From contig NZ_JACHJJ010000004.1 of the NCBI RefSeq assembly GCF_014203605.1, positions 248,001-312,000 of the forward strand: a stretch of DNA of 64,000 nt, in the 5' to 3' direction. A program made the position numbers and the translations under genes. Shown in pieces: positions 28,621 to 44,174 of the stretch; position 1 is the stretch's first letter, and the number at the start of each line of letters is the position of its first letter. Origin of the DNA: Thiemannella venezuelensis (GTDB taxonomy: Bacteria; Actinomycetota; Actinomycetes; Streptosporangiales; Streptosporangiaceae). The notes beneath the pieces were generated by a model, which did not search any database, was not told the DNA's origin, and worked only from the letters and a program-made list of their open reading frames with translations.

Positions 28621-29580
28621 ATGGATCGTCTGGAGCGTGCCGCCGGTGCGGTCGCCGGCTCGGCGGTGGGAGACGCGCTGGGTGCTCCGTTCGAGTTCGG
28701 TCCGGCGGGGGCGTTCTCCGCTCGGTTCCCGGTGCCGGGTGCCGGGGGAGAGATGCATGCGGGCGGTGGCTGGGAGGCCGGTGAGGCCACCGACGACACG
28801 CAGATGGCCGTGCATGTCGCGGAGTCGCTGCTGGAGCGCGGGGGATTGGACCCGGCGGACGTGTTCGCCCGGTTTCAGCGGTGGGCGGCCGACGACCCCA
28901 AGGACATCGGGGTGCAGACCGAGGACGTGCTGAGTCGCGGCCTGCCGTGGGACCGGGCCGCTGACGCCCACTTCCGCAGCAGCCACCGGGCCGCCGGCAA
29001 CGGCGCACTCATGCGGGCCGCCACATCGGCGGTGTACTTCGCCCGTGACGGACGGCAGGCCACGATGGAGGCCGGTCGCCGCCTGGCCGCGCTCACCCAC
29101 GGCGATCCGGCGGCGTGGGAGGGCACCGCGATCTTCCACGAGCTGGTGCGCCTCGCCCTGGACGGCGCCGACTCGCTGGAGGTCCTGCCGGACATCCTCG
29201 CCGCCGTCGATCCGGAGCACCGGGAGCGCTACGCCGTCGTCCTGGACCCGGCCTGGCATCCGGATCAGGCGACCGAGTTCAACGGCGCCGTCTGGCCCTG
29301 CCTGGGCTCGGCGGTGTGGGCGGTGCGCGTCACCTCCGCCTTCGAGGACGCACTCCGGGCCGCGGTCGACCTGGGCGGGGACACCGACACCGTCGCCGCG
29401 GTCACCGGCGGCCTGGCCGGTGCCGTCTACGGCCTCGGCGCGATCCCGGTCCGCTGGACGGAGCCGCTGCACGTCCCGCTGCCCGGCAGCGGCGGCCGGG
29501 TACTGTGCCTACCGCACCTGCTCGACCTCGCCCGATACCTGGTGGAGCGGGTTCCGGTGCAGGACGGCTCGGCCGGATGA
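28621..29580 (+). CDS. ADP-ribosylglycohydrolase (DraG/ARH family)
   Basis: The 319-residue cytoplasmic enzyme would remove ADP-ribose from proteins, nucleic acids or small molecules using two Mg2+ ions. The metal-binding signatures are present: GDALGAPFEFGP near residue 17, ATDDTQM near 57-63, and DLGGDTDTVAAV near 249. The helical core motif HRAAGNGALMRA is also intact. It is a stand-alone gene with its own leaderless promoter, and no ADP-ribosyltransferase is adjacent. The substrate is unknown. Confidence 0.9.
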   Translation: MDRLERAAGAVAGSAVGDALGAPFEFGPAGAFSARFPVPGAGGEMHAGGGWEAGEATDDTQMAVHVAESLLERGGLDPADVFARFQRWAADDPKDIGVQTEDVLSRGLPWDRAADAHFRSSHRAAGNGALMRAATSAVYFARDGRQATMEAGRRLAALTHGDPAAWEGTAIFHELVRLALDGADSLEVLPDILAAVDPEHRERYAVVLDPAWHPDQATEFNGAVWPCLGSAVWAVRVTSAFEDALRAAVDLGGDTDTVAAVTGGLAGAVYGLGAIPVRWTEPLHVPLPGSGGRVLCLPHLLDLARYLVERVPVQDGSAG

Positions 29581-30942: not shown

Positions 30943-31804
30943 GTGCCTGTCCGTCTCCTCTACCTGATCGCGCTCCGGGTGTCCGGCCGGCTGGCGCTGC
31001 CGGGCCGAAGCGAGGCGGCAAGGACGTCGAGATCATGATGCTGCGACATGAGGCGGCGGTGCTGCGGCGTCAGGTCGCCCGGCCGAAGCCGAAAACCCGG
31101 CCTGGGGATATCGCCGGATGCACGGTGAACTCATCCGGCTCGGCTACCGCGTAAGCGAAGCGACCGTACGGCGGATCCTCCGGCGCCGACGGGTTGGCCC
31201 GGCTCTCCGAGATGCCGACACCTCGTGGAGGACCTTCCTGCGCGTCCAGGCGAAAGGACTGCCGGCCGCCGACTTCTTCCGCGTCGACAGGATCTTCTTG
31301 AGACGCCTGTGCGTGCCGTTCGTCACGGAAGTCACCACTCGGCGCGTGCACCTCCTCGGTGTGACCGCCCACCCCACCGGAGTCTGGACGGCCCAGCAGG
31401 ACCGCGACCTGCTCGTGGACCCCGGCGGCCGGGTCAGGTCCTTCCATTTGCTCATCCGCGACCGGGATGCCAAGCTCACCGGCGTCTTCGACGAGGTCTT
31501 CGCCAGTGAGGGCGTGACGGTGGTGAAGCTCCCGTCGCGCACGCCGCGGGCCGGCTGCTATGCGGGGCGGTGGGTGCGCACCGTACGGGCCGAGTGCACC
31601 GACCGCACGCTGATCTCCAACGAACGGCACCTGCGCTCGGCACTGGCCGGGTACGCCGATCACTGCAACGGCCACCGGCCGCACCAGTCCCGCGCGCAGC
31701 GGCCACCCGATCACGACGAGCGGACCGCCGTCCCGCTGGAAGGCCGGATCGAACGCCGGAAGGTGCTCGGCGGGCTGATCGACGAGTACCACCGAGCCGC
31801 GTAG
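30943..31804 (+). pseudogene. IS481/IS3-like integrase-core transposase, decayed
   Basis: Reads as a common actinobacterial DDE transposase with damage. The start VPVRLLYLIALRVSGRLALP is in one frame and EIMMLRHEAAVLRRQVARPK in another. About 80 residues are then missing before MHGELIRLGYRVSEATVRRI. The catalytic core keeps the first Asp (ADFFRVD) and second Asp (IRDRDAK). The third acidic residue is lost, because the usual AERWV is AGRWV (Glu to Gly). The C-terminus KVLGGLIDEYHRAA is intact. Two frameshift/deletion events plus the lost catalytic Glu make it inactive. Confidence 0.8.
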
Positions 31805-35658: not shown

Positions 35659-36090
35659 TCACCGTTCGTAGAGGCGGTGGTACCACCATCCGTTGAAGGC
35701 TCCCGGCCACCGGCATGGTCGGGGGTCGGGGAGAGTACGGCGGTAGAACTCCTCGTCCAGTCTCGTCACGAGCCGCGAGAACTCCGCCCTGGCCGAGTGC
35801 CGGAGGCGCCGCAGGGCGTATTCCAGGGTGTCGCGGGCCTCTGTCGGATCGCAGCAGGGGCAGTCGGGTTCGGGCAGGTAGAGGTAGCGGCCGGGCCGGC
35901 GGAGGAACCGTCGATACTCGACGAAGGCCGCCGTGACGGACCCGGGTCCCAGATAGCGGTTCTGGAGTTCGATGCGGGCGATGGCCGCACTGGTCCGGCT
36001 GGACAGGCCGGGAATCCTGGAAGCTGGGCGGTACCTTCGGCGGTCCGCCCACGGGTGTACGCGCAGGGCGCCGGGCCGTCTACGCGGCAT
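35659..36090 (-). CDS. Hypothetical protein with CPCC motif
   Basis: The 143-residue basic, soluble product has PEPDCPCCDPTEARDTLEYA in the middle, then LRRLRHSARAEFSRLVTRLD, and ends WWYHRLYER. The CPCC pair may bind metal. Coding quality is good throughout. I do not recognise a characterised family. It lies between the IS3 scrap and the left end of the integrated element, so it belongs to the host chromosome side. The exact start is uncertain, because the first 30 residues are Arg/Pro-rich. Confidence 0.6.
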   Translation of the reverse strand: MPRRRPGALRVHPWADRRRYRPASRIPGLSSRTSAAIARIELQNRYLGPGSVTAAFVEYRRFLRRPGRYLYLPEPDCPCCDPTEARDTLEYALRRLRHSARAEFSRLVTRLDEEFYRRTLPDPRPCRWPGAFNGWWYHRLYER

Positions 36091-36322
36091 CGGCCTTTCT
36101 GATCGTCATGGTCTAGATGGTGCCATACCGGGATGTCACGGACCATGCCTGCGAAGGCCCGGAATGGTTCCGCGCAGTGCCGGAACCCCCGGCGCCACCG
36201 GGGAAAGCGGGGCCGCGGGAATTCCGCGACCAGTGGCGTACGGCTGCCTGCGGCGGCAGGGGAGGCCCGGGCCGGTGACATGGAAAAGACCAGGTCAGAC
36301 AGCGAATGACCTGGTCTCGGTT

Positions 36323-36365
36323 GCGCGCCCTGCAGGATTCGAACCTGCGACCGTCGGATTAGAAG
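36323..36365. repeat. Distal attachment site (att direct repeat)
   Basis: 43 bp identical to 43782-43824, covering the tRNA-Arg 3' end up to the anticodon loop. Here the rest of the tRNA is missing, as expected for the end distal to the integrase. The adjoining 36366-36560 is AT-richer and holds no gene. Confidence 0.9.
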
Positions 36366-36560
36366 AAAGATCATCTATGTGTTCGTCATGACTGTTCTGG
36401 GGTTCTGGCTGTCGCTTGATGATGTTTCGTCTCCGATCTATTCGGATTTGCTGCCGGGTTGTGCCCGGCGCTAATGATGGATTCCGGGGCATGCGAGCAC
36501 ACACCGAGCGCGTTGGACACGGCATTCGGATTTCCCGGGTGCGTGCATGATGTTCTGTGA

Positions 36561-37214
36561 TCACTCTGCTGGGCGACTGTGGTCCCAGGCAGTCGCGAAC
36601 AGGAGTAATGCGTAGTCGTACATCAAGCCAGGGCGGCGTGCGACAACGCATGGGGAGTTGCGACCGTGTTCTGTCTGCCGGTACATGGTCAGGTAGGCGA
36701 CGTTGTCGGTGATGACGATGCGATGCACGTTGGGCAGGTTATAGAACCTCAGCAAGACGTTTTCGTGATGGCGCGCCACCTCACTCACATACGCGGCATT
36801 GGTGCGTACCTGTTCAGTGAGTAGCCCAGGGGAGAAACCCAAATCCACACGACGTATCTCCGCCTCTCGTCTGGCGAGCCAGGAGTCAGAGCCGAGATCG
36901 ACATCGGGCAGGAGGACCTGGACAGATTCCAATCGCCTGCCCGCATCCTCCCAGACGCTGGCGAACCCATCGCGTGTCAGCTCGTTGCCGCGTCCCGCCA
37001 GAACGCGTACCCATCGTGCGCGCGCCAACTCGGCCGCCAGCTGCTGAGCGGCCAGTCGTTGGCGCGGAAAGACGTATCGGACTCCTAAACCAGTCACTCG
37101 GGACAGGAGCGCGACTGGCCATTGGCGGGAACGCGTGGAGAATGCCCAGCTTCCCGCGATGGTGAGCGCGGTCGCCAGAAGAGAACTCACCACCCCAAGC
37201 ACGAACGCATCCAC
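36561..37214 (-). CDS. TM-anchored cytoplasmic protein of unknown function (element cargo)
   Basis: The 217-residue product has one N-terminal membrane helix (residues about 4-25, FVLGVVSSLLATALTIAGSW) and then a soluble domain. Ordered motifs are WVRVLAGRGNELTRDGF, VQVLLPDVDLGSDSWLARRE, and LLRFYNLPNVHRIVITDNVA. The alternation of strands and helices with a late aromatic RFYN block recalls phospholipase-D-like or nucleotide-sensor folds, but no HKD motif is present. GTG 37214 follows GGAG by 7 nt. It is third in the operon, 42 nt after the phosphorylase-fold gene. Likely role is a membrane-linked sensor or effector, as inference. Confidence 0.75.
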   Translation of the reverse strand: MDAFVLGVVSSLLATALTIAGSWAFSTRSRQWPVALLSRVTGLGVRYVFPRQRLAAQQLAAELARARWVRVLAGRGNELTRDGFASVWEDAGRRLESVQVLLPDVDLGSDSWLARREAEIRRVDLGFSPGLLTEQVRTNAAYVSEVARHHENVLLRFYNLPNVHRIVITDNVAYLTMYRQTEHGRNSPCVVARRPGLMYDYALLLFATAWDHSRPAE

Positions 37215-37256
37215 GCCTGTCTCCTTCGTTGAAGGCCGGATAAGGGAGCTGAAGTC

Positions 37257-38147
37257 TCACACCCTGTCGACTCGGAGATAGGGAAGCAGGTTGCGTAGGA
37301 CCGTTGCCGCGTGTCGGGCGGCGATATCGTGGTAATCGTCGTTCTTGCGCGGACTGGCGTCATCGGAAATTCCGCGCACGACAATCCAGCCACGTACGGC
37401 CTGAGACCCGTCCTGCTCATGAAATGCCTGGGTGAGGCCACCAGCCTCCATGTCAACGGCGAGGATCTTGTCGTTGAAGGCTTTCAGGTATCGGATGATT
37501 TCCGACTCCGCATCCGCGATCACGGCGTCACCCGATCCGATCGGTCCAGCGTGCACTCGGTAGTCACGTGTGACGCCTTCGTCGTCGGTGATCTGGAATC
37601 TGGCCGGCTCACCGTAATCGGTGAAAAAAGAGTTGATGGCATGACCGACCGCGGATGGGGCTTCTCGCTCCTCACCTCTGCGCTTTCGCCCCTCTGGAGT
37701 CTCCTTGCGCAGGTCGTAGTAGACGACTCTGGTGGTCACGACGACATCGCCGAGAGCGGTGTCAGCGTGGATGCCACCACCGATCCCGGCCAGCACAATG
37801 ATGGCCGGGTTGTAGTGCCGCCGTAAGTGGTCGAAGGCCACGACGGTTGATCGCTGCCCCTGAGACAGGGCACGGATAGCGGCGACTCGAGTGACGGTAC
37901 CCCGGACGTTCACGGTTCCCTCGAAGAAGGGAAGATCGCCGGTCTGGGCGCGCTGCAGGTCCAGTACTGCGTGAACCGCGCTCGCCTCCTTGCCGAGGAT
38001 GGTGATCACTCCTACGTCGGCGCGTCTGGCGTGCAATCTCTTCTCTTGGTCACTTGCCGCTACGGTAACTTTCGCTCCGTGCCCGACCGCGGACTGGCTG
38101 ATCTCCATGGATCCTCCGTAATTAGCGATGCCACTGTTGCCGCTCAT
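37257..38147 (-). CDS. Nucleoside-phosphorylase/nucleosidase-fold protein with N-terminal SAVG peptide
   Basis: The 296-residue product has a PNP_UDP_1 domain from about residue 43. The glycine motif is GIGGGIHADTALGDVVV (121-137), the ribose-contacting Met233-Glu234 is in VDMEAGG, and the catalytic-type Asp262 is in GISDDAS, as in MTA/SAH nucleosidases. Residues 6-27 form a short motif (NYGGSMEI, QSAVG, AKV) that is repeated at the C-terminus of the upstream gene's product. Its ATG overlaps that gene's stop by ATGA. Phosphorylase-fold domains act as ATP nucleosidases in several anti-phage systems, so an effector role is plausible but unproven. Confidence 0.85.
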   Translation of the reverse strand: MSGNSGIANYGGSMEISQSAVGHGAKVTVAASDQEKRLHARRADVGVITILGKEASAVHAVLDLQRAQTGDLPFFEGTVNVRGTVTRVAAIRALSQGQRSTVVAFDHLRRHYNPAIIVLAGIGGGIHADTALGDVVVTTRVVYYDLRKETPEGRKRRGEEREAPSAVGHAINSFFTDYGEPARFQITDDEGVTRDYRVHAGPIGSGDAVIADAESEIIRYLKAFNDKILAVDMEAGGLTQAFHEQDGSQAVRGWIVVRGISDDASPRKNDDYHDIAARHAATVLRNLLPYLRVDRV

Positions 38148-39910
38148 TGCTGGTCTCCTTCATTTGTCGGAGCCTGTCCACTGCTCGTGTCGGACTCGCG
38201 AGTGTCTGCGCGGACCTGTGCGTTGGTACCTACCGCAGACTGTTTGATCTCGGTCTTCCCGCCCATGTTGAGCACGCCTGTGTTGATGATGCTGGTTGCC
38301 CTCTTCTTGAACGTGGAGGTGTCGATCTCTCGGGATTCGAGGAAGTCCTCGGTGGCCTTGAGCAGACGCTGTTCGATGAGCTTCATATGGTCATGAATCG
38401 TGACCTCGTCCAGTTGTGCGTGCTTCCATGGCGTGGATTTCTCCTCGCGGATGCTCACTTGGGCACCGATGGCCATCCCGCGTCGAGGTTTGAGCATGCG
38501 ATTTTTGCGGGCGCGCACAGCACCGATCAGGAGTAGGGGAGCTTCGGTGAGCCGCCATACGTCTGAGACTTCGGTAGGAAGGCTGAACAGTCCGCGCACC
38601 GTAGAGCGGATGACTGCGCTTGCGCCGCTCTCCGCGAAGCCGTTGAGCCACTGGTACTCGACGGGAGTGCGAGTCAGCGCGCAGGCGGCGAAATCGAGGC
38701 TGAGCGCTCGCCCCTTGACGGTTACTCGGAGGAAGACCGTGGTGACCAATTCACCGGTGGCGCTGGTGCTGATTTCCAGGAAGTGGTGAGATGTGTTGTA
38801 GGGATCGTCGATGGTCTTGTCGATCTCGCTCTGGCTCGGACGTTTCCTGAGCCACTCAGGGTGGGGCGGCACATCGGCTTCGGCGATATACAGCCGATCG
38901 TTGATTCTGAACCCGCGCAGCCCGTTTGGATCGTCGGGGTCCCCCATGGGTGTCATGGCCTTGTGCAGGTGAGCGATGAGTTCGTGAGCCTGGAAACGCG
39001 GTGTCGCGTGCTCCAGCTCCTCCATGGGCGTGTGCCCAGTGGGATTGTCTCTGGCGTTGAGTGATCGGAAGAGCTGGATGGTCAGTGGAGGAAGCCATCG
39101 GTGCACGAGTTCGCCGCTTCCTACGAACGGGCTCTGGTCTTCGTCAAGCAGTTCGAAGGTGAAGTCTCCTGGTTGCGTTTCAGGCTCTAGTGGCGAGGGT
39201 CTGCGATAGACCACATAAGGATGGGATTGCTGATCGTCGATCGTTTGTTGGCGAAGGGTGAGCTTCCGCGGCCGCAGCGACGCCGCCCGATGCATGTGAT
39301 TGAGACACCACTGCTGAACCGCGTGCCTGCCCCCCACCACGATGACGAGCAGCGACACGAGGAGCACCGTCGACTGCGTCATCTCGCTCAGTGGAACGCG
39401 GGAGAACCCGGCGACCATGAAGGGCATCAGGGACAGGACGGCGCATCCGAAGCCGCTGAGACGGAGAAGGCGTGTGTGCTGCCGTAGTTCGTCTGATTCA
39501 CTTCTCCACCGTGTTCGCCGCAGCCATCTGTCCATCGCGGCCTTGGCGTGGAGCGGAAGCACGACTCGAGTGCTCCTGGCCGCCAGACGGAAGAGGTACC
39601 AGAATCCGAGTCCGCTGACACCGGTGAGCGCGGCCGGCGGGTTGGTGGCGAAGCCGATTGCGAGTACTGCCAGGACGCATAGATGCTGTGCCGTCTCCAG
39701 GAACCATGCCCGCCATGCGTGCCTGACGACGGGGACGAGGTCGAAGCCGTAGGACGGAGCGACTAGGCGGCTCGTGTCGTTGTGCACGTGGCGAAGAATG
39801 ACGCGGCGAAAGTCGCGGTCGCGGTACGTGCCCGCGCACAGGTGTCGAGTGGAGGCATCTTCTCTGAAGGCGCCGCCGTGCTCATCTCGCGCCACCCAGG
39901 ATCGGACCAT
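38144..39910 (-). CDS. Four-helix membrane protein with large cytoplasmic domain and C-terminal SAVG peptide
   Basis: The 588-residue product has four predicted membrane helices (about 72-90, 92-112, 150-170 and 181-195). A soluble region of nearly 400 residues follows, of unknown fold (SHPYVVYRRPSPLEPETQP, HHFLEISTSATGELVTTVFL). It ends in a tail with NMGGKTEI, QSAVG and AQV (residues 548-566), matching the N-terminus of the next protein at 13 of 22 positions. ATG 39910 has a strong AGGAGG. It is first in the operon, from a near-consensus promoter. Probably the membrane sensor or scaffold of the cargo system, as inference. Confidence 0.8.
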   Translation of the reverse strand: MVRSWVARDEHGGAFREDASTRHLCAGTYRDRDFRRVILRHVHNDTSRLVAPSYGFDLVPVVRHAWRAWFLETAQHLCVLAVLAIGFATNPPAALTGVSGLGFWYLFRLAARSTRVVLPLHAKAAMDRWLRRTRWRSESDELRQHTRLLRLSGFGCAVLSLMPFMVAGFSRVPLSEMTQSTVLLVSLLVIVVGGRHAVQQWCLNHMHRAASLRPRKLTLRQQTIDDQQSHPYVVYRRPSPLEPETQPGDFTFELLDEDQSPFVGSGELVHRWLPPLTIQLFRSLNARDNPTGHTPMEELEHATPRFQAHELIAHLHKAMTPMGDPDDPNGLRGFRINDRLYIAEADVPPHPEWLRKRPSQSEIDKTIDDPYNTSHHFLEISTSATGELVTTVFLRVTVKGRALSLDFAACALTRTPVEYQWLNGFAESGASAVIRSTVRGLFSLPTEVSDVWRLTEAPLLLIGAVRARKNRMLKPRRGMAIGAQVSIREEKSTPWKHAQLDEVTIHDHMKLIEQRLLKATEDFLESREIDTSTFKKRATSIINTGVLNMGGKTEIKQSAVGTNAQVRADTRESDTSSGQAPTNEGDQQ

Positions 39911-39932
39911 GCCGTCCTCCTAGCCCAATTCA

Positions 39933-39990
39933 GGTCTAACTGACCATAAGCCGCCTACCGTTTTGAGTCAAGGTGACCTTTAGCTAGAGT
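39933..39990. promoter_or_regulatory. Overlapping divergent promoters with operator-like repeats
   Basis: Minus strand: TTGACT (39966-39971), 17-nt spacer, TATGGT (39943-39948), driving the three-gene operon. Plus strand: TTGAGT (39963-39968), 16-nt spacer, TAGAGT (39985-39990), ending 6 nt before GTG 39997 of the NUDIX-wHTH gene. The two -35 boxes overlap in TTGAGTCAA. AAGGTGACCTT (39970-39980) and GGTCTAACTGACC (39933-39945) are operator candidates at the two promoters. Confidence 0.7.
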
Positions 39991-39996
39991 GGCCTG

Positions 39997-40755
39997 GTGG
40001 TGGAAAGATCCGGTCGACGCCCAGCCGCGCCGGTTACTGTGACAGTGGATCTCGTGATCTTCACCGTCCGGCAGGACCAGCTCCAGGTTCTGCTGGTCGA
40101 ACGCGGCAATGAGCCATATCGGGGATCCGCTGCTTTGCCCGGAGGCTTCGTCCGCGACGGTGAAACCTTGGATGAGGCAGCACTACGAGAGCTCTTGGAG
40201 GAGACTGCGCTCGACGGACGCAGACTGCATCTGGAGCAGTTGCACGCTTACAGCGATCCGGAACGCGATCCGCGAGGCAGGGTCATCACGGTGGCATATC
40301 TGGCGCTCGGATCTGACCTGCCGTTCCCGGCTGCTGGCACGGATGCCGCGAGAGCGTACTGGACGCCGATCTCATCCGCCCTGGATGGCGGCATGGCGTT
40401 GGCCTTCGACCATGCAGCGATACTGCGCGACGGACTGGAAAGAGCGAGATCACAGCTTGAACATACGACGGTGGCGGCGGCTTTCTGCCCCGAACCGTTC
40501 ACCGTCGGCGATTTGCGTCGCATCTATGAAGCCGTGTGGGGATTCAAGCTCGATCCCAGCAACTTCCGTAGAAAGATGACCCGAGCAGAAGGGTTTCTCG
40601 AGCCCACGGGGGAGCGCCGCTTTCCTGAAGTTGGTCGCCCCGCAGCCCTCTATCGGAGAGGGTCCGCGTCGCTGTTGATACCGCCGTTGCTGCGATCGAG
40701 CGAGATTCCCCCCCTTTCAAATGATCAATCATCTATGGGAGTCAGGATAGTGTAG
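39997..40755 (+). CDS. NUDIX-winged-helix regulator (NrtR-like)
   Basis: The 252-residue product combines a NUDIX domain with a C-terminal winged helix (FTVGDLRRIYEAVWGFKLDP, then SNFRRKMTRAEGFLEPTG), the NrtR architecture. Such proteins sense ADP-ribose or related nucleotides and control NAD metabolism. The NUDIX box is nearly complete: G50, E56, R64, E65, E68, E69, with Ala where the family has Gly, so catalysis or ligand binding may persist. GTG 39997 is leaderless. It is divergent from the cargo operon with overlapping promoters and convergent with the second phosphorylase-fold gene, 10 nt away. Likely local repressor of the module. Confidence 0.85.
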   Translation: MVERSGRRPAAPVTVTVDLVIFTVRQDQLQVLLVERGNEPYRGSAALPGGFVRDGETLDEAALRELLEETALDGRRLHLEQLHAYSDPERDPRGRVITVAYLALGSDLPFPAAGTDAARAYWTPISSALDGGMALAFDHAAILRDGLERARSQLEHTTVAAAFCPEPFTVGDLRRIYEAVWGFKLDPSNFRRKMTRAEGFLEPTGERRFPEVGRPAALYRRGSASLLIPPLLRSSEIPPLSNDQSSMGVRIV

Positions 40756-40765
40756 TAAGAACGAA

Positions 40766-42202
40766 TCACCGACCTATCCTGCGAAAGGCTTGTAGTAGCC
40801 GAGCGCACATTTCTTCGGCAATATCTTGAGGGTTAGAAGCGAGGTGCGGGAAAGGGAGGACATCGTCGGCCGGTACGCGTACGGGTGTCGATGATATCCG
40901 AAGGGGGGCGCTCGTCCGGGGAAGGTCCGAGACGCGGCCTTCCGCGATTGCGAAGGTGCGTGTGAGGCCAACCGCGACGCCTACCTCCATGGAAATCGGC
41001 ACCTCCACTTTGGCAAGTAGCGTCAGCAGGGCTGTCAAGCGGCCGACGAGGTCTATCGGGTCGAGCACAGCACCCAGCATGTCCTTCGGTAGCGATTGCC
41101 AGGCGGAGCGCTGACCATCACGAGTGACCGCCAGTCCGCTTCCGGACGGTGCGATGACCATTGCGGGATCCTCAATCCTCAATCCCTCAGCTACTGCGAA
41201 TAGTTGCTCTGCTCGACCCAAGGCCGCAAGTTCGTTGTTGAGTGCGCTCAGCCTCCGGGCCTCCATCCGTAGGGTTTGATCGGCTGGAATGACGTGCAGT
41301 TCTATTGCGGCTGACATGCTTGAGTTCCCGAGGTTGAGTTCGGATAGCCAGAAGGTCGGTAAGGCTTCGTCCAGTGGCCTCCAGGTGGCCTTACCGTTCA
41401 TTTCGGAGTTTGATCCGGAATTATGTACCGGAGAGTTCGAGCGCATGGCATCCTCGGCTTCTGCCAGGTCTTTGAGGAATGCAGTGGCGAAAGCGGCGGC
41501 ATGGGATGCCGCCTGAGGTTGGAGTCCTTTTGCATCGCTGAGATGTTTCTCCCCGTCGGCCTTATCGCTGATCCCCCGAATTGTAAGGACAGGTAGCGAC
41601 GTGTTGAGGTGCGCTGCGATTCCAGCGCCAGCGCTTTCCATCTCAATGGCCGCCGCATCGTCATAGTTCTTCCGTAGCTGGACGGCGAGCGTTGAGCTAC
41701 GAGAATTGAGTACAACCTCGCCCGCCGCGATCGGCTTGAAATGCACTTTCGGATTAGCTGGTGAGGGTAGGAGAGTTGCCCACTCACCTCGCACATCTAC
41801 CATCCGTGCCACTTGTTCCAAAAAGTGTGCTGCACCCCAGCCGCGCGGCCTTGCCCGAAACTCCTCACTCTCCTCTTTCCCGCCGTGATAGCCGTGCACC
41901 CACGTCGCCACCACGACATCACCGAGGTCGATGTCGTCCTTGAGGCCTCCAGCAATGCCAACGACGAGCAACGCTCGCGGATTAAACGAGGTGATGGCTC
42001 GTTCAGCTAATACCGCAGTGTTCACATTCCCCTCGCCTGCCAGCATTATCACTACCTGCCAGGGTGTCCCGGGTATCATTCCCGTTTCGAAGGATGTGCC
42101 CTCCAGGTGCCATTGCTGCCGGAGGTCCATAAGTCGTGCGCGCATAGCCTTGTACTCCAGATTCATAGGAGTGATCACGACCACGGTTTTGTCCTTGCGC
42201 AC
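40766..42202 (-). CDS. Nucleoside-phosphorylase-fold protein with unfamiliar C-terminal domain
   Basis: The 478-residue product begins with a PNP_UDP_1 domain (residues about 5-248). VVVITPMNLEYKAMRARL opens it, followed by GIAGGLKDDIDLGDVVVAT, the Met188-Glu189 pair in AIEMESAGAG and Asp213 in GISDKAD. A linker rich in Ser/Asn leads to residues 271-478, for which I recognise no family (WRPLDEALPTFWLSELNLGN, LTLLAKVEVPISMEVGVAVG). This resembles effector-plus-sensor layouts. GTG 42202 has AGGTGA 8 nt upstream. Whether it makes MTA/SAH, adenosine or ATP its substrate cannot be judged. Confidence 0.85.
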   Translation of the reverse strand: MRKDKTVVVITPMNLEYKAMRARLMDLRQQWHLEGTSFETGMIPGTPWQVVIMLAGEGNVNTAVLAERAITSFNPRALLVVGIAGGLKDDIDLGDVVVATWVHGYHGGKEESEEFRARPRGWGAAHFLEQVARMVDVRGEWATLLPSPANPKVHFKPIAAGEVVLNSRSSTLAVQLRKNYDDAAAIEMESAGAGIAAHLNTSLPVLTIRGISDKADGEKHLSDAKGLQPQAASHAAAFATAFLKDLAEAEDAMRSNSPVHNSGSNSEMNGKATWRPLDEALPTFWLSELNLGNSSMSAAIELHVIPADQTLRMEARRLSALNNELAALGRAEQLFAVAEGLRIEDPAMVIAPSGSGLAVTRDGQRSAWQSLPKDMLGAVLDPIDLVGRLTALLTLLAKVEVPISMEVGVAVGLTRTFAIAEGRVSDLPRTSAPLRISSTPVRVPADDVLPFPHLASNPQDIAEEMCARLLQAFRRIGR

Positions 42203-42230
42203 ACTTCACCTGCTCTTCAGCGAGTGCCTA

Positions 42231-42267
42231 GGGGCCGCTAACTATCCTCTCATCGGGAAGCGGCCCC
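42231..42267. promoter_or_regulatory. Stem-loop upstream of the second phosphorylase-fold gene
   Basis: Arms GGGGCCGCT and AGCGGCCCC with a 19-nt loop, 29 nt before the GTG start on the minus strand. It could be an operator, an attenuator or an end of the integrase-side transcript. Confidence 0.35.
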
Positions 42268-42419
42268 TTGCGCCGTTGCGATGGTGGGTTTGACATCTTC
42301 CGCAGCAGGCGAAGCAGGGGGAATGGTAGGTAATGGGTGCTAGAGTTCGATTTTTCGTCGACTTCTGGCCTGGTTGAGGCGCCTGGCGCGATGCACATTG
42401 AAGGTGCGGAGGCGAGCAG

Positions 42420-43709
42420 ATGGCAAAGAACCACGTGAAGGTCAGCAGGCGATGCGGCTGTGTCGAATCCCGCACCGGACGCCAGCGCGGGGCGAACTGT
42501 CCACGTCTGCTGCAGGACGACGATCACGGCAGCTGGTACTTCGCGGTTCGGATACGGGGCCTGGACGGAGAGCGGCAGCGGGTCCGCCAGGGCGGGCATG
42601 TCGACCGTGAGGAAGCGGAGGCCGCCGGCAGAGCCTTGATCGCCGCCGACGGCGATGTCATGGGCGCCGGATGCACGGTGGGCCAGTGGTTGGCGCGGTG
42701 GCTGACGACCAAGACCGCTGCGCGGCCGTCGACCCGGCAGGGATATGCCACCCACCTCCGTCTTCACCTCATTCCGCACGTGGGCCGGATCCGCCTGCGG
42801 GCGCTGACGGTCCGGGACGTCAGCGGGATGCTCGCGGCCCTGGGGGCGCATCGCTCACCGGCGGGACACCGGTTGTCGCCGGCGACCGTGGTGCGCATCC
42901 ACGCCACGTTGCGGGCCGCGTTGAACGCGGCGGTGCGGGCCGGGCTGATTCCGACCAATCCCGCCACCGGAGCCGAGCTCCATCGACCCCGGCGGCCGCA
43001 TCCGGTGGTGTGGACCGCGGGGCGGACGGCTCGGTGGCGGCAGGAGGGGGAGCGTCCGGCGGTGGCGGTCTGGACCAAACGACAGCTTGCGATCTTCCTG
43101 ACCGGAGTGGCGCAGGATCACCTGTACGCCGCCTGGTGGCTGGCCGCGCTGCGCGGCCTGCGGCGCGGGGAGGTGGCTGGGCTGCGTTGGACGGACGTCG
43201 AGCTGGAGGCCGCGGAGTTGACCGTGGCTCAGCAGCGGGTGCACGCCGAAGGCCGGGTGGTGGTGTGCCCGCCCAAAAGCGCCGCCAGTTGCCGGGTGGT
43301 GGCCCTGGACAAGGAGACGGTGCGGGTGCTGACCTGTCACCGGGAGCGCCAGGAGCAGCAGGGCGAGGCCGCGGGACCGCGCTGGAAGGAATCGGGGTAT
43401 GTATTCACCACGACCGAGGGGGCACCGTTGCGGCCGGACTACCTCACGGGTCGGTTCCGCAGACTGGTGACGGCCTCGGGGCTTCCCCCGATCCGGCTGC
43501 ACGATCTGCGGCACGGCGCCGCGACACTGGTGCTGGCGGCGCACACCGATCTCAAGGTGGTCCAGGCGATGCTCGGGCATGCCAGCATCGTGCTCACCGC
43601 CGACACCTATGTCTCGGTGCTACCGGTGATCGCCCACGAGGCGGCTCAGGAGACGGCTCGGCTGGTGCTGACCGCCGCGGCGGCTCTCGGCCGTGATCGG
43701 AGAGTCTGA
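42420..43709 (+). CDS. Tyrosine integrase
   Basis: Site-specific recombinase of 429 residues, complete. An N-terminal Cys-containing segment (RRCGCVESRTGRQRGANCPR) resembles the zinc/arm-binding heads of actinomycete element integrases. The SAM-like core-binding domain follows (TVGQWLARWLTTKTAARPST), then the catalytic domain with Arg248 (GLRRGE), His361 and Arg364 (HDLRH), His387 (LGHASI) and Tyr397 (DTYVSV). It lies 73 nt from the tRNA-Arg 3' end and points toward it. It should recombine the 43-bp repeats. No excisionase-like small gene is apparent beside it. Confidence 0.92.
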   Translation: MAKNHVKVSRRCGCVESRTGRQRGANCPRLLQDDDHGSWYFAVRIRGLDGERQRVRQGGHVDREEAEAAGRALIAADGDVMGAGCTVGQWLARWLTTKTAARPSTRQGYATHLRLHLIPHVGRIRLRALTVRDVSGMLAALGAHRSPAGHRLSPATVVRIHATLRAALNAAVRAGLIPTNPATGAELHRPRRPHPVVWTAGRTARWRQEGERPAVAVWTKRQLAIFLTGVAQDHLYAAWWLAALRGLRRGEVAGLRWTDVELEAAELTVAQQRVHAEGRVVVCPPKSAASCRVVALDKETVRVLTCHRERQEQQGEAAGPRWKESGYVFTTTEGAPLRPDYLTGRFRRLVTASGLPPIRLHDLRHGAATLVLAAHTDLKVVQAMLGHASIVLTADTYVSVLPVIAHEAAQETARLVLTAAAALGRDRRV

Positions 43710-43781
43710 CTCACATCTGCCCCAGGCCAGCCCCACATCGTGGCGGTTTGCGGGCACGGCGAAAGTTTCCGCAGGTCAAAA

Positions 43782-43824
43782 GCGCGCCCTGCAGGATTCG
43801 AACCTGCGACCGTCGGATTAGAAG
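43782..43824. repeat. tRNA-proximal attachment site (att direct repeat)
   Basis: 43 bp identical to 36323-36365. It covers one base beyond the tRNA-Arg 3' end through the anticodon-loop start. Confidence 0.9.
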
Positions 43825-43856
43825 TCCGGTGCTCTATCCAGCTGAGCTAAGGGCGC
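43783..43856 (-). tRNA. tRNA-Arg(UCU)
   Basis: 74-nt cloverleaf on the minus strand. Acceptor stem GCGCCCT/AGGGCGC with discriminator G, D-arm GCTC...GAGC, anticodon loop CTTCTAA (anticodon TCT), T-arm GCAGG-TTCGAAT-CCTGC. CCA is not encoded. One C-A mismatch lies at the top of the anticodon stem. Its 3' part serves as the integration site of the element to the left and is restored by the att repeat. Confidence 0.95.
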
Positions 43857-44174
43857 TCCTGCCTAATTGTGCATGATCCTGGGAGTGCCCATGCATCGGT
43901 TTTCCTTCCGTGTCGCCCGGAGCGGGCCGGTGTCCCGCCGACCGGTGCGCTCTCCGGCCGGGCGGGTGGCATCCGCGCTGGTCAACCGGGTCCGCCTCCG
44001 TACGGCTCCGCCGTTCTGTGGAACGTGACCAGGATCACTCCTCACGACCGGCCCCGGTGATCCGGCAGGGATGCGGCCGGCGGCCGCCGCCGGGTGCGGC
44101 GGCGAGGAAGGTCGCTGAGACCTCGGCGGAGGACCGGTGCGGCATCGGATTTTCGAGAAGCACCGGAATGGGTC

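Follow-up and report, generated by a model that had tools for sequence, protein, structure and literature searches.

A predicted two-operator control region shared by a NUDIX-winged-helix regulator and a divergent nucleosidase operon in a tRNA-borne element of Thiemannella venezuelensis

The locus and its mobile element

Within the window, by which we mean the whole 64-kb stretch of Thiemannella venezuelensis DNA analysed here, a regulator gene and a divergent three-gene operon lie between two copies of the 3' end of a tRNA-Arg gene, together with a second nucleosidase gene and an integrase gene (loci and genomes of relatives are numbered with the prefixes L and G):

36323-36365: attL, a 43-nt copy of the tRNA-Arg 3' end, identical to 43782-43824
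36561-37214, minus strand: p217, a long N-terminal helix and a predicted PLD-superfamily fold (alignment; AlphaFold2 pLDDT 81.7; Foldseek)
37257-38147, minus strand: pnp296, a PNP/MTAN-type nucleosidase with an N-terminal motif of about 19 aa (PF01048, E 6e-17; PADLOC)
38144-39910, minus strand: mem588, predicted to have four long helices, an alpha/beta domain and a disordered tail with the shared motif (AlphaFold2 pLDDT 79.5)
39997-40755, plus strand: NrtR-type NUDIX-winged-helix regulator with a predicted leaderless GTG start (PF00293, E 3e-18; PF21906, E 2e-16)
40766-42202, minus strand: pnp478, a second PNP nucleosidase (PF01048, E 2e-29)
42420-43709, plus strand: tyrosine integrase of the element (PF00589, E 2e-18)
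43782-43824: attR core, inside tRNA-Arg(TCT) at 43782-43856

The identity of the two repeats, their derivation from the tRNA 3' end and the sister genome G058, in which a 77%-identical left flank runs directly into the tRNA gene (98%) and which hence represents an empty site, delimit an element of about 7.46 kb; judged from these comparisons, this element in tRNA-Arg carries the module, the second PNP gene and the integrase. In an Rfam scan of positions 36000-44000, only the tRNA rose above threshold. Among 21 loci of relatives, a tRNA gene is present in L059 and L063 only, and the window integrase, used as the query in the locus comparison, matches L026 and L062 only, and weakly. The pnp478 gene is convergent to the regulator gene, with 10 bases between them, such that two nucleosidase types are present in one element; the relatives of pnp478 elsewhere are located on the same strand as, and after, regulators of the class denoted class II below. 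Outside the element, the ORF at 28621-29580 encodes what we take to be an ADP-ribosylglycohydrolase-like protein; the product of the ORF at 31118-31804 is presumably transposase/integrase core-like.

Divergent promoters between the operon and the regulator

The interval 39911-39996, which separates mem588 from the regulator gene, contains these predicted regulatory elements:

39916-39921, minus strand: Shine-Dalgarno sequence AGGAGG of mem588, whose ATG is at 39910 (sequence)
39929-39949: operator 1, TTCAGGTCTAACTGACCATAA, overlapping the operon -10 (alignment, profile, genome pattern)
39943-39948 (read 39948-39943), minus strand: operon promoter -10, TATGGT, 17-nt spacer to the -35 (sequence, scanner, conservation)
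39962-39982: operator 2, TTTGAGTCAAGGTGACCTTTA, overlapping the -35 of the operon promoter and, on the regulator side, the -35/spacer (alignment, profile, genome pattern)
39963-39968, plus strand: TTGAGT of the regulator promoter, taken for its -35 in an earlier note on this DNA, 16-nt spacer to the -10
39966-39971 (read 39971-39966), minus strand: operon promoter -35, TTGACT (sequence reading and conservation)
39985-39990, plus strand: regulator -10, TAGAGT, 6 nt before GTG 39997 (sequence and homologs)

The operon promoter, which the earlier note had read as TTGACT-17-TATGGT, is borne out both by the sequence itself and by its conservation in 33 upstream regions (the window and 32 homologs): the -35 is TTGAC[T/C] in 33/33, and the -10 matches TANNGT in 32/33, with a spacer of 16-18 nt. 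A consensus promoter scanner reported three matches in 8 kb, the minus-strand promoter being one of them, where shuffling gives an expectation of 1.4; taken alone, this match is weak, and the significance of the promoter derives from its conservation in homologs rather than from the scanner score.

The regulator promoter proposed in the same note, TTGAGT-16-TAGAGT, likewise stands in its place, subject to a correction of its -35. A plus-strand TANNNT is found 5-7 nt ahead of a possible start codon in 24/33 regions and at exactly 6 nt in 19/33 (including L029, in which it is farther from the operator than usual), and this arrangement is missing in 9/33. By contrast, TTGAGT finds no conservation as a -35: in the 33 regions, no other position of the operator arm in which it lies is as poorly conserved as its third letter, and on this alignment TTGAGT is the outer arm of an operator rather than a conserved -35. 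Given that TAGAGT is located six bases before GTG 39997, the regulator mRNA should be leaderless, and several near relatives open with M-x-E-R-S, in agreement with GTG 39997 and not with the second GTG. The view of the regulator as a local, leaderless NUDIX-winged-helix protein thus gains support from this start and from the PF00293 and PF21906 matches. In Streptomyces coelicolor, the -10 is TANNNT and the -35 NTGACC, and leaderless mRNAs originate from 21% of the primary start sites (PMC4895711), whereas Mycobacterium tuberculosis shows TANNNT and no conserved -35 (PMC3898074). As read from the sequence, the -35 regions of the operon and regulator promoters overlap by 3 bp.

Two operators conserved with the regulator

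Both operators are 21-bp near-palindromes with the consensus TTwAGGTCA-n3-TGACCwTAA in the 33 aligned upstream regions. The GGT...ACC repeats described in the earlier note are part of them, but the second of these repeats (GGTGACC) was out of register, its place being taken by the conserved dyad GTCAAGGTGAC centred at 39972. Over the 33 loci, ungapped pairwise identity averages 0.72 in operator 1 and 0.81 in operator 2, compared with 0.32-0.34 in the inter-operator spacer and 0.31 upstream, operator 2 being better conserved than operator 1. The 33 regions comprise the window, 29 homologs with loci among the matches listed and three from a further search, and the 32 homologs have 67-89% protein identity to the window regulator; duplicate loci, the partial L041 and matches below 66% identity are outside the count, as are the other listed class I rows. 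Operator 2, found in 33/33, is the anchor of the alignment, and operator 1 is the best of nine registers; because the homologs share descent, the 33 loci are not independent, and L037 and L038 are both counted although they are 98% identical. The former is a 3-kb contig labelled Nocardia aurea that is possibly a contamination of that assembly, considering its near identity to Nonomuraea lactucae L038.

The operator centres are 34 bp apart in 24 loci, 33 bp in 8 (the window included) and 32 bp in one, that is, by about three helical turns; as most homologs show the 34-bp spacing, which corresponds to an 18-nt promoter spacer, the operon promoter may be weak. The left arm of operator 1 is lost in L017, and the extra regulator copies L154 and L155, outside the 33, have weaker sites, with TAAC for TGAC in operator 2 of L154.

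When a profile built from 24 homologs, each below 80% identity, was run over the 64-kb window, the two operators ranked first and second, with symmetric scores of 30.0 and 27.4, and the next-best site scored 7.7 and overlapped operator 2. The pair score is 57.3; when the interval was dinucleotide-shuffled 5000 times, the highest value was 27.7, so that 0/5000 reach the observed score. A strict search pattern for both operators together, applied to the whole genomes of 200 family members, yielded 28 matches, one per genome, against none for the reversed control, and by coordinates 28/28 are directly upstream of a listed class I regulator. On the evidence of these genomes, the operators are specific for this regulator subfamily. 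Not every regulator is captured by the strict pattern, given that 28 genomes matched it whereas at least 44/200 contain a regulator with no less than 60% identity among the matches listed. In the window's own genome, a single-operator pattern with up to two mismatches gave 25 matches versus 9 for the control, so that single weak sites elsewhere in this genome are possible; only the match in the window has fewer than two mismatches. No such operator was seen, by eye, upstream of L002 and L003, the regulator paralogs in the same genome (53-55% identity). The pnp478 gene, considered as a target of the same operator, was rejected, its best upstream site having only 10/18 letters. In viral contigs, 10 stretches fitted a pattern, none of them confirmed as a regulator relative.

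The operator pair is retained where the nearest divergent match is a nucleosidase (L052, L055) and where it is p217 (L029, L033, L034, L064). In genome G539, a mem588-pnp296 operon has both operators and a TTGACC-17-TAAGGT promoter, with no regulator within 1.5 kb upstream; the regulator of this genome (71% identity) is on the same contig at a distance of 1.6 Mb, where it diverges from p217 and has an operator pair of its own. In L041 (Sphaerimonospora thailandensis) and L153 (G034), only the C-terminal parts of the regulator and mem588 match, and these abut, so the promoter region appears to have been deleted; L041 still has the pnp296 and p217 homologs.

A palindromic operator that overlaps its own promoter and is conserved along with the regulator is a feature of auto-regulated local repressors, and it is present here. 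The proposal of overlapping divergent promoters with sites able to serve both is, then, supported by the 33-region alignment, the profile and the genome-wide pattern.

A sister class of regulators with a different operator

Among 20 more distant regulators, hand-picked from the regulator match list, 16 loci contain a single site near TTYCTGTCA-n3-TGACARGAA (the class II operator), and 16/20 have, after the regulator and on the same strand, a pnp478-type PNP nucleosidase with 44-52% identity in the aligned portion; L094, L096, L103 and L104 have neither the operator nor the PNP gene. The start codon of the class II regulators follows TANNNT by 6-7 nt in 14/16, the exceptions being L099 and L105. 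The operators of the two classes have the core GTCA-n3-TGAC in common but differ in their arms, and the recognition helix reads SNFRRK in 12/12 class I rows versus RNFYRK in 7/7 class II rows, the two changed positions aligning with Arg180 and Arg183 of BtAraR, which contact DNA (PMC4666351). Since arms and recognition helix both differ by class, operator and reader change together.

The regulator as a predicted sensor

The regulator belongs to the broad NrtR family, with 66.4 bits for PF00293 (cut-off 21.1) and 60.6 bits for PF21906 (cut-off 27), and has PDB relatives 3gz5 and 5bs6. With the NF050029 equivalog model, it scores 131.9, below the 400-bit cut-off, and none of the seven proteins of the scanned region is encoded by an NAD biosynthesis gene. 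The Nudix box GX5EX7REUXEE, read by eye, is retained in 12/12 class I rows, the window included; in 7/7 class II rows REUXEE is retained, with one extra residue ahead of the first Glu, whereas L096 is without REUXEE. In the NrtR regulators of NAD metabolism, the Nudix box is impaired (PMC4666351, PMC6800001), and MsNrtR is an auto-repressor released by ADP-ribose and reported to lack detectable hydrolase activity (PMC6800001). Unlike these known NrtRs, the regulator has the box intact in all class I rows, so the predicted sensor may double as an enzyme.

With respect to the signal, Arg36 and Arg93 are invariant in 20 aligned rows and align with ligand-contacting arginines of SoNrtR, whereas BtAraR, whose ligand is free arabinose, carries Gly opposite Arg93 (PMC4666351). 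Because Arg93 replaces Gly89 of BtAraR, the pocket is probably not the phosphate-free sugar pocket of that protein. A nucleotide signal is plausible, as the residues aligned with the ADP-ribose phosphate contacts of NrtR are retained; these aligned contacts are as far as the class of ligand can be narrowed.

The operon proteins and their shared motif

The four long helices of mem588, judged by eye, are probably membrane helices. At E 0.1, neither Pfam nor NCBIfam gives a match to the protein, and a PDB fold search gave nothing below E 0.06, the alpha/beta domain thus being without a PDB match. Matches at E 0.001 in the mem588 superfamily occur in 47/394 genomes of the class, eight of them below 1e-90; the regulator adjoins in seven of these eight but not in L113 (G539). 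The pnp296 product is assigned to the PNP effector domain by PADLOC (Effector (PN-superfamily), E 5e-22, 76 bits); a toxic payload would be in keeping with the PNP family. Foldseek matches of p217 are PLD/NucT/Nuc/TrmB, and its N-terminal helix is probably in the membrane. The HKD motif, which we take to belong to the PLD fold, is unconserved in the p217 alignment.

A motif of about 19 aa, GGxxEIxQSAVGxxAxV, is present both at the C-terminus of mem588 and at the N-terminus of pnp296 (38058-38275, minus strand; loci L038-L065); the L052 and L055 nucleosidases do not have it, and neither locus shows a mem588 match. The motif variants pair within loci: over 19 pairs, L038 being left out although it carries the motif, the similarity is 0.430 versus 0.367 when permuted, a level reached in 1/20000 permutations, and with nine representatives, a coarse control for relatedness, in 2/20000. 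These observations make the mem588/pnp296 motif a candidate non-NLR homotypic signalling pair, and the operon could be regarded as a candidate conflict (defence) module.

In L064 (G174), the regulator is divergent to p217, which is followed by a remote mem588 relative and then by a pnp478-type nucleosidase whose head sequence differs. No mem588 match is seen in this locus at E 1e-5; because a remote match exists (25% identity, E 4e-4), L064 is kept out of the loci said to lack mem588, and possibly it is a further variant of the module.

A co-repression hypothesis and its alternatives

The hypothesis that seems to accommodate these findings best, to which we assign a probability of roughly 0.8, is that of a dedicated two-operator region through which the NUDIX repressor shuts both its own promoter and that of the mem588-pnp296-p217 operon until released by a ribose-phosphate nucleotide, the whole constituting a candidate conflict module. 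Under this scenario, the NrtR-type repressor would bind as dimers to operator 1 and operator 2. With the operon -10 and -35 and the regulator -35/spacer all covered by the operators, the bound repressor should close the leaderless promoter and the operon promoter simultaneously. The repressor would then be freed by a ribose-phosphate nucleotide, such as ADP-ribose or a related fragment from NAD or nucleotide cleavage, so that both units come on together, and the intact Nudix box may let the regulator destroy the signal and thereby reset the system. The tail motif of mem588 would pair with its counterpart at the N-terminus of the pnp296 nucleosidase.

The earlier note had instead envisaged a toggle, in which one regulator switches two mutually exclusive promoters, one being on when the other is off. 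The 3-bp overlap of the -35 regions implies that two polymerases could hardly bind together, and it is solely through such competition of polymerases that exclusion could arise. However, both operators overlap elements of the operon promoter and operator 2 overlaps the regulator promoter as well, which points to joint closure, and the arrangement of class II, where the regulator and a same-strand nucleosidase are under one operator, also fits co-repression; mutually exclusive switching therefore finds no support and strikes us as improbable. Co-repression of the regulator and the divergent operon is the most likely reading.

Less credible still is the possibility that the palindromes are sites of an unrelated host regulator conserved here by chance. 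The motifs of the NrtR family vary widely (PMC4666351), which leaves some room for such a coincidence, but it is hard to reconcile with the 28/28 strict matches that adjoin this regulator subfamily in 200 genomes and with operator arms that shift with the regulator class. Marginally weaker again is the case for an ordinary NrtR of NAD metabolism that happens to lie beside the operon: the domain architecture is that of NrtR, yet the scanned region holds no NAD genes among its seven proteins, the equivalog score is far under its cut-off, the strict operator pair is unique in its genome, and the Nudix box is intact rather than impaired. Finally, the conserved dyads could be thought of as RNA structure (attenuation) instead of DNA operators, considering that operator 1 is partly within the start of the predicted operon transcript. 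The probability of this is close to negligible, inasmuch as operator 2, which is upstream of both predicted starts, is nevertheless the better conserved of the two, and the Rfam threshold was reached by the tRNA alone.

Building on the co-repression hypothesis, a bolder conjecture, which we consider rather unlikely although less so than any of the above alternatives, is that the regulator works as a Nudix hydrolase, sensing the ribose-phosphate that its own nucleosidase produces and breaking it down. Such a circuit would form a self-amplifying and self-resetting alarm, and the nucleosidase would be activated through homotypic (amyloid-type) templating by a membrane sensor, with no NLR involved. 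If so, slight nucleosidase activity would derepress more nucleosidase, and the sensor would clear the signal when cleavage ends.

Relationship to known systems and implications

NrtR, AraR and PNP effectors are already known, and Nudix-HTH or WYL repressors have been predicted in ARG-centred conflict operons (PMC9503650, section 3.8). Like MsNrtR and SoNrtR, the regulator described here combines a NUDIX domain with the NrtR winged helix, is accompanied by a palindromic operator of 21-23 bp beside its own gene such that auto-repression is expected, and retains the residues aligned with the ADP-ribose phosphate contacts. It differs from the NrtR of NAD synthesis in the intact Nudix box, the presence of two operators and a nucleosidase operon in place of nad genes; the MsNrtR operator, GTTTTCGA-N7-TCGAAAAC (PMC6800001), also differs from the operators found here. 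BtAraR, an NrtR-family protein of Bacteroides, is of the same fold family and its recognition helix aligns, but the present regulator has Arg93 for Gly89 and other DNA-contact residues. What is predicted for the ARG-centred systems, namely a Nudix-HTH local negative regulator, a default-off conflict operon and ADP-ribose-type ligands (PMC9503650), resembles the present proposal; here, however, the scanned proteins of the element include a PNP nucleosidase, a membrane protein and a PLD-like protein instead of an ADP-ribosylglycohydrolase or phosphatase, and the operators are now defined.

The predicted effector role of a PNP superfamily nucleosidase is common to this module and Cap17, whose partners are CBASS, Detocs, pAgo, DRT8 and NLR-like systems (PMC10952713); none of these is among the scanned proteins of the element, where the partner is mem588. 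Similarly, the BASS amyloid motifs are short motifs that recur, at opposite ends, in proteins encoded by neighbouring genes (PMC7889193), whereas here a membrane protein bears the motif at its C-terminus and a nucleosidase at its N-terminus; this likeness is one of arrangement. No NLR partner was recognised, and mem588 has no Pfam match or PDB fold match, so the mem588/pnp296 pair resembles amyloid signalling pairs, but without an NLR. A search of literature titles and the beginnings of abstracts, with most subscription journals outside its coverage, found no description of a Nudix-PNP module; as far as the searched literature shows, the PNP-centred module, the two operator codes and the paired motif are new.

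These findings offer an exact, testable operator code for Nudix-HTH repressors that are recurrently found beside PNP nucleosidases; two architectures occur, and the operator comes in two variants. The code would provide a handle on the nucleotide signal that is sensed, with G539 as a two-locus natural experiment. Furthermore, if the paired motif templates the enzyme, this would bear on NLR-free amyloid signalling in bacteria, a question raised in PMC7889193.
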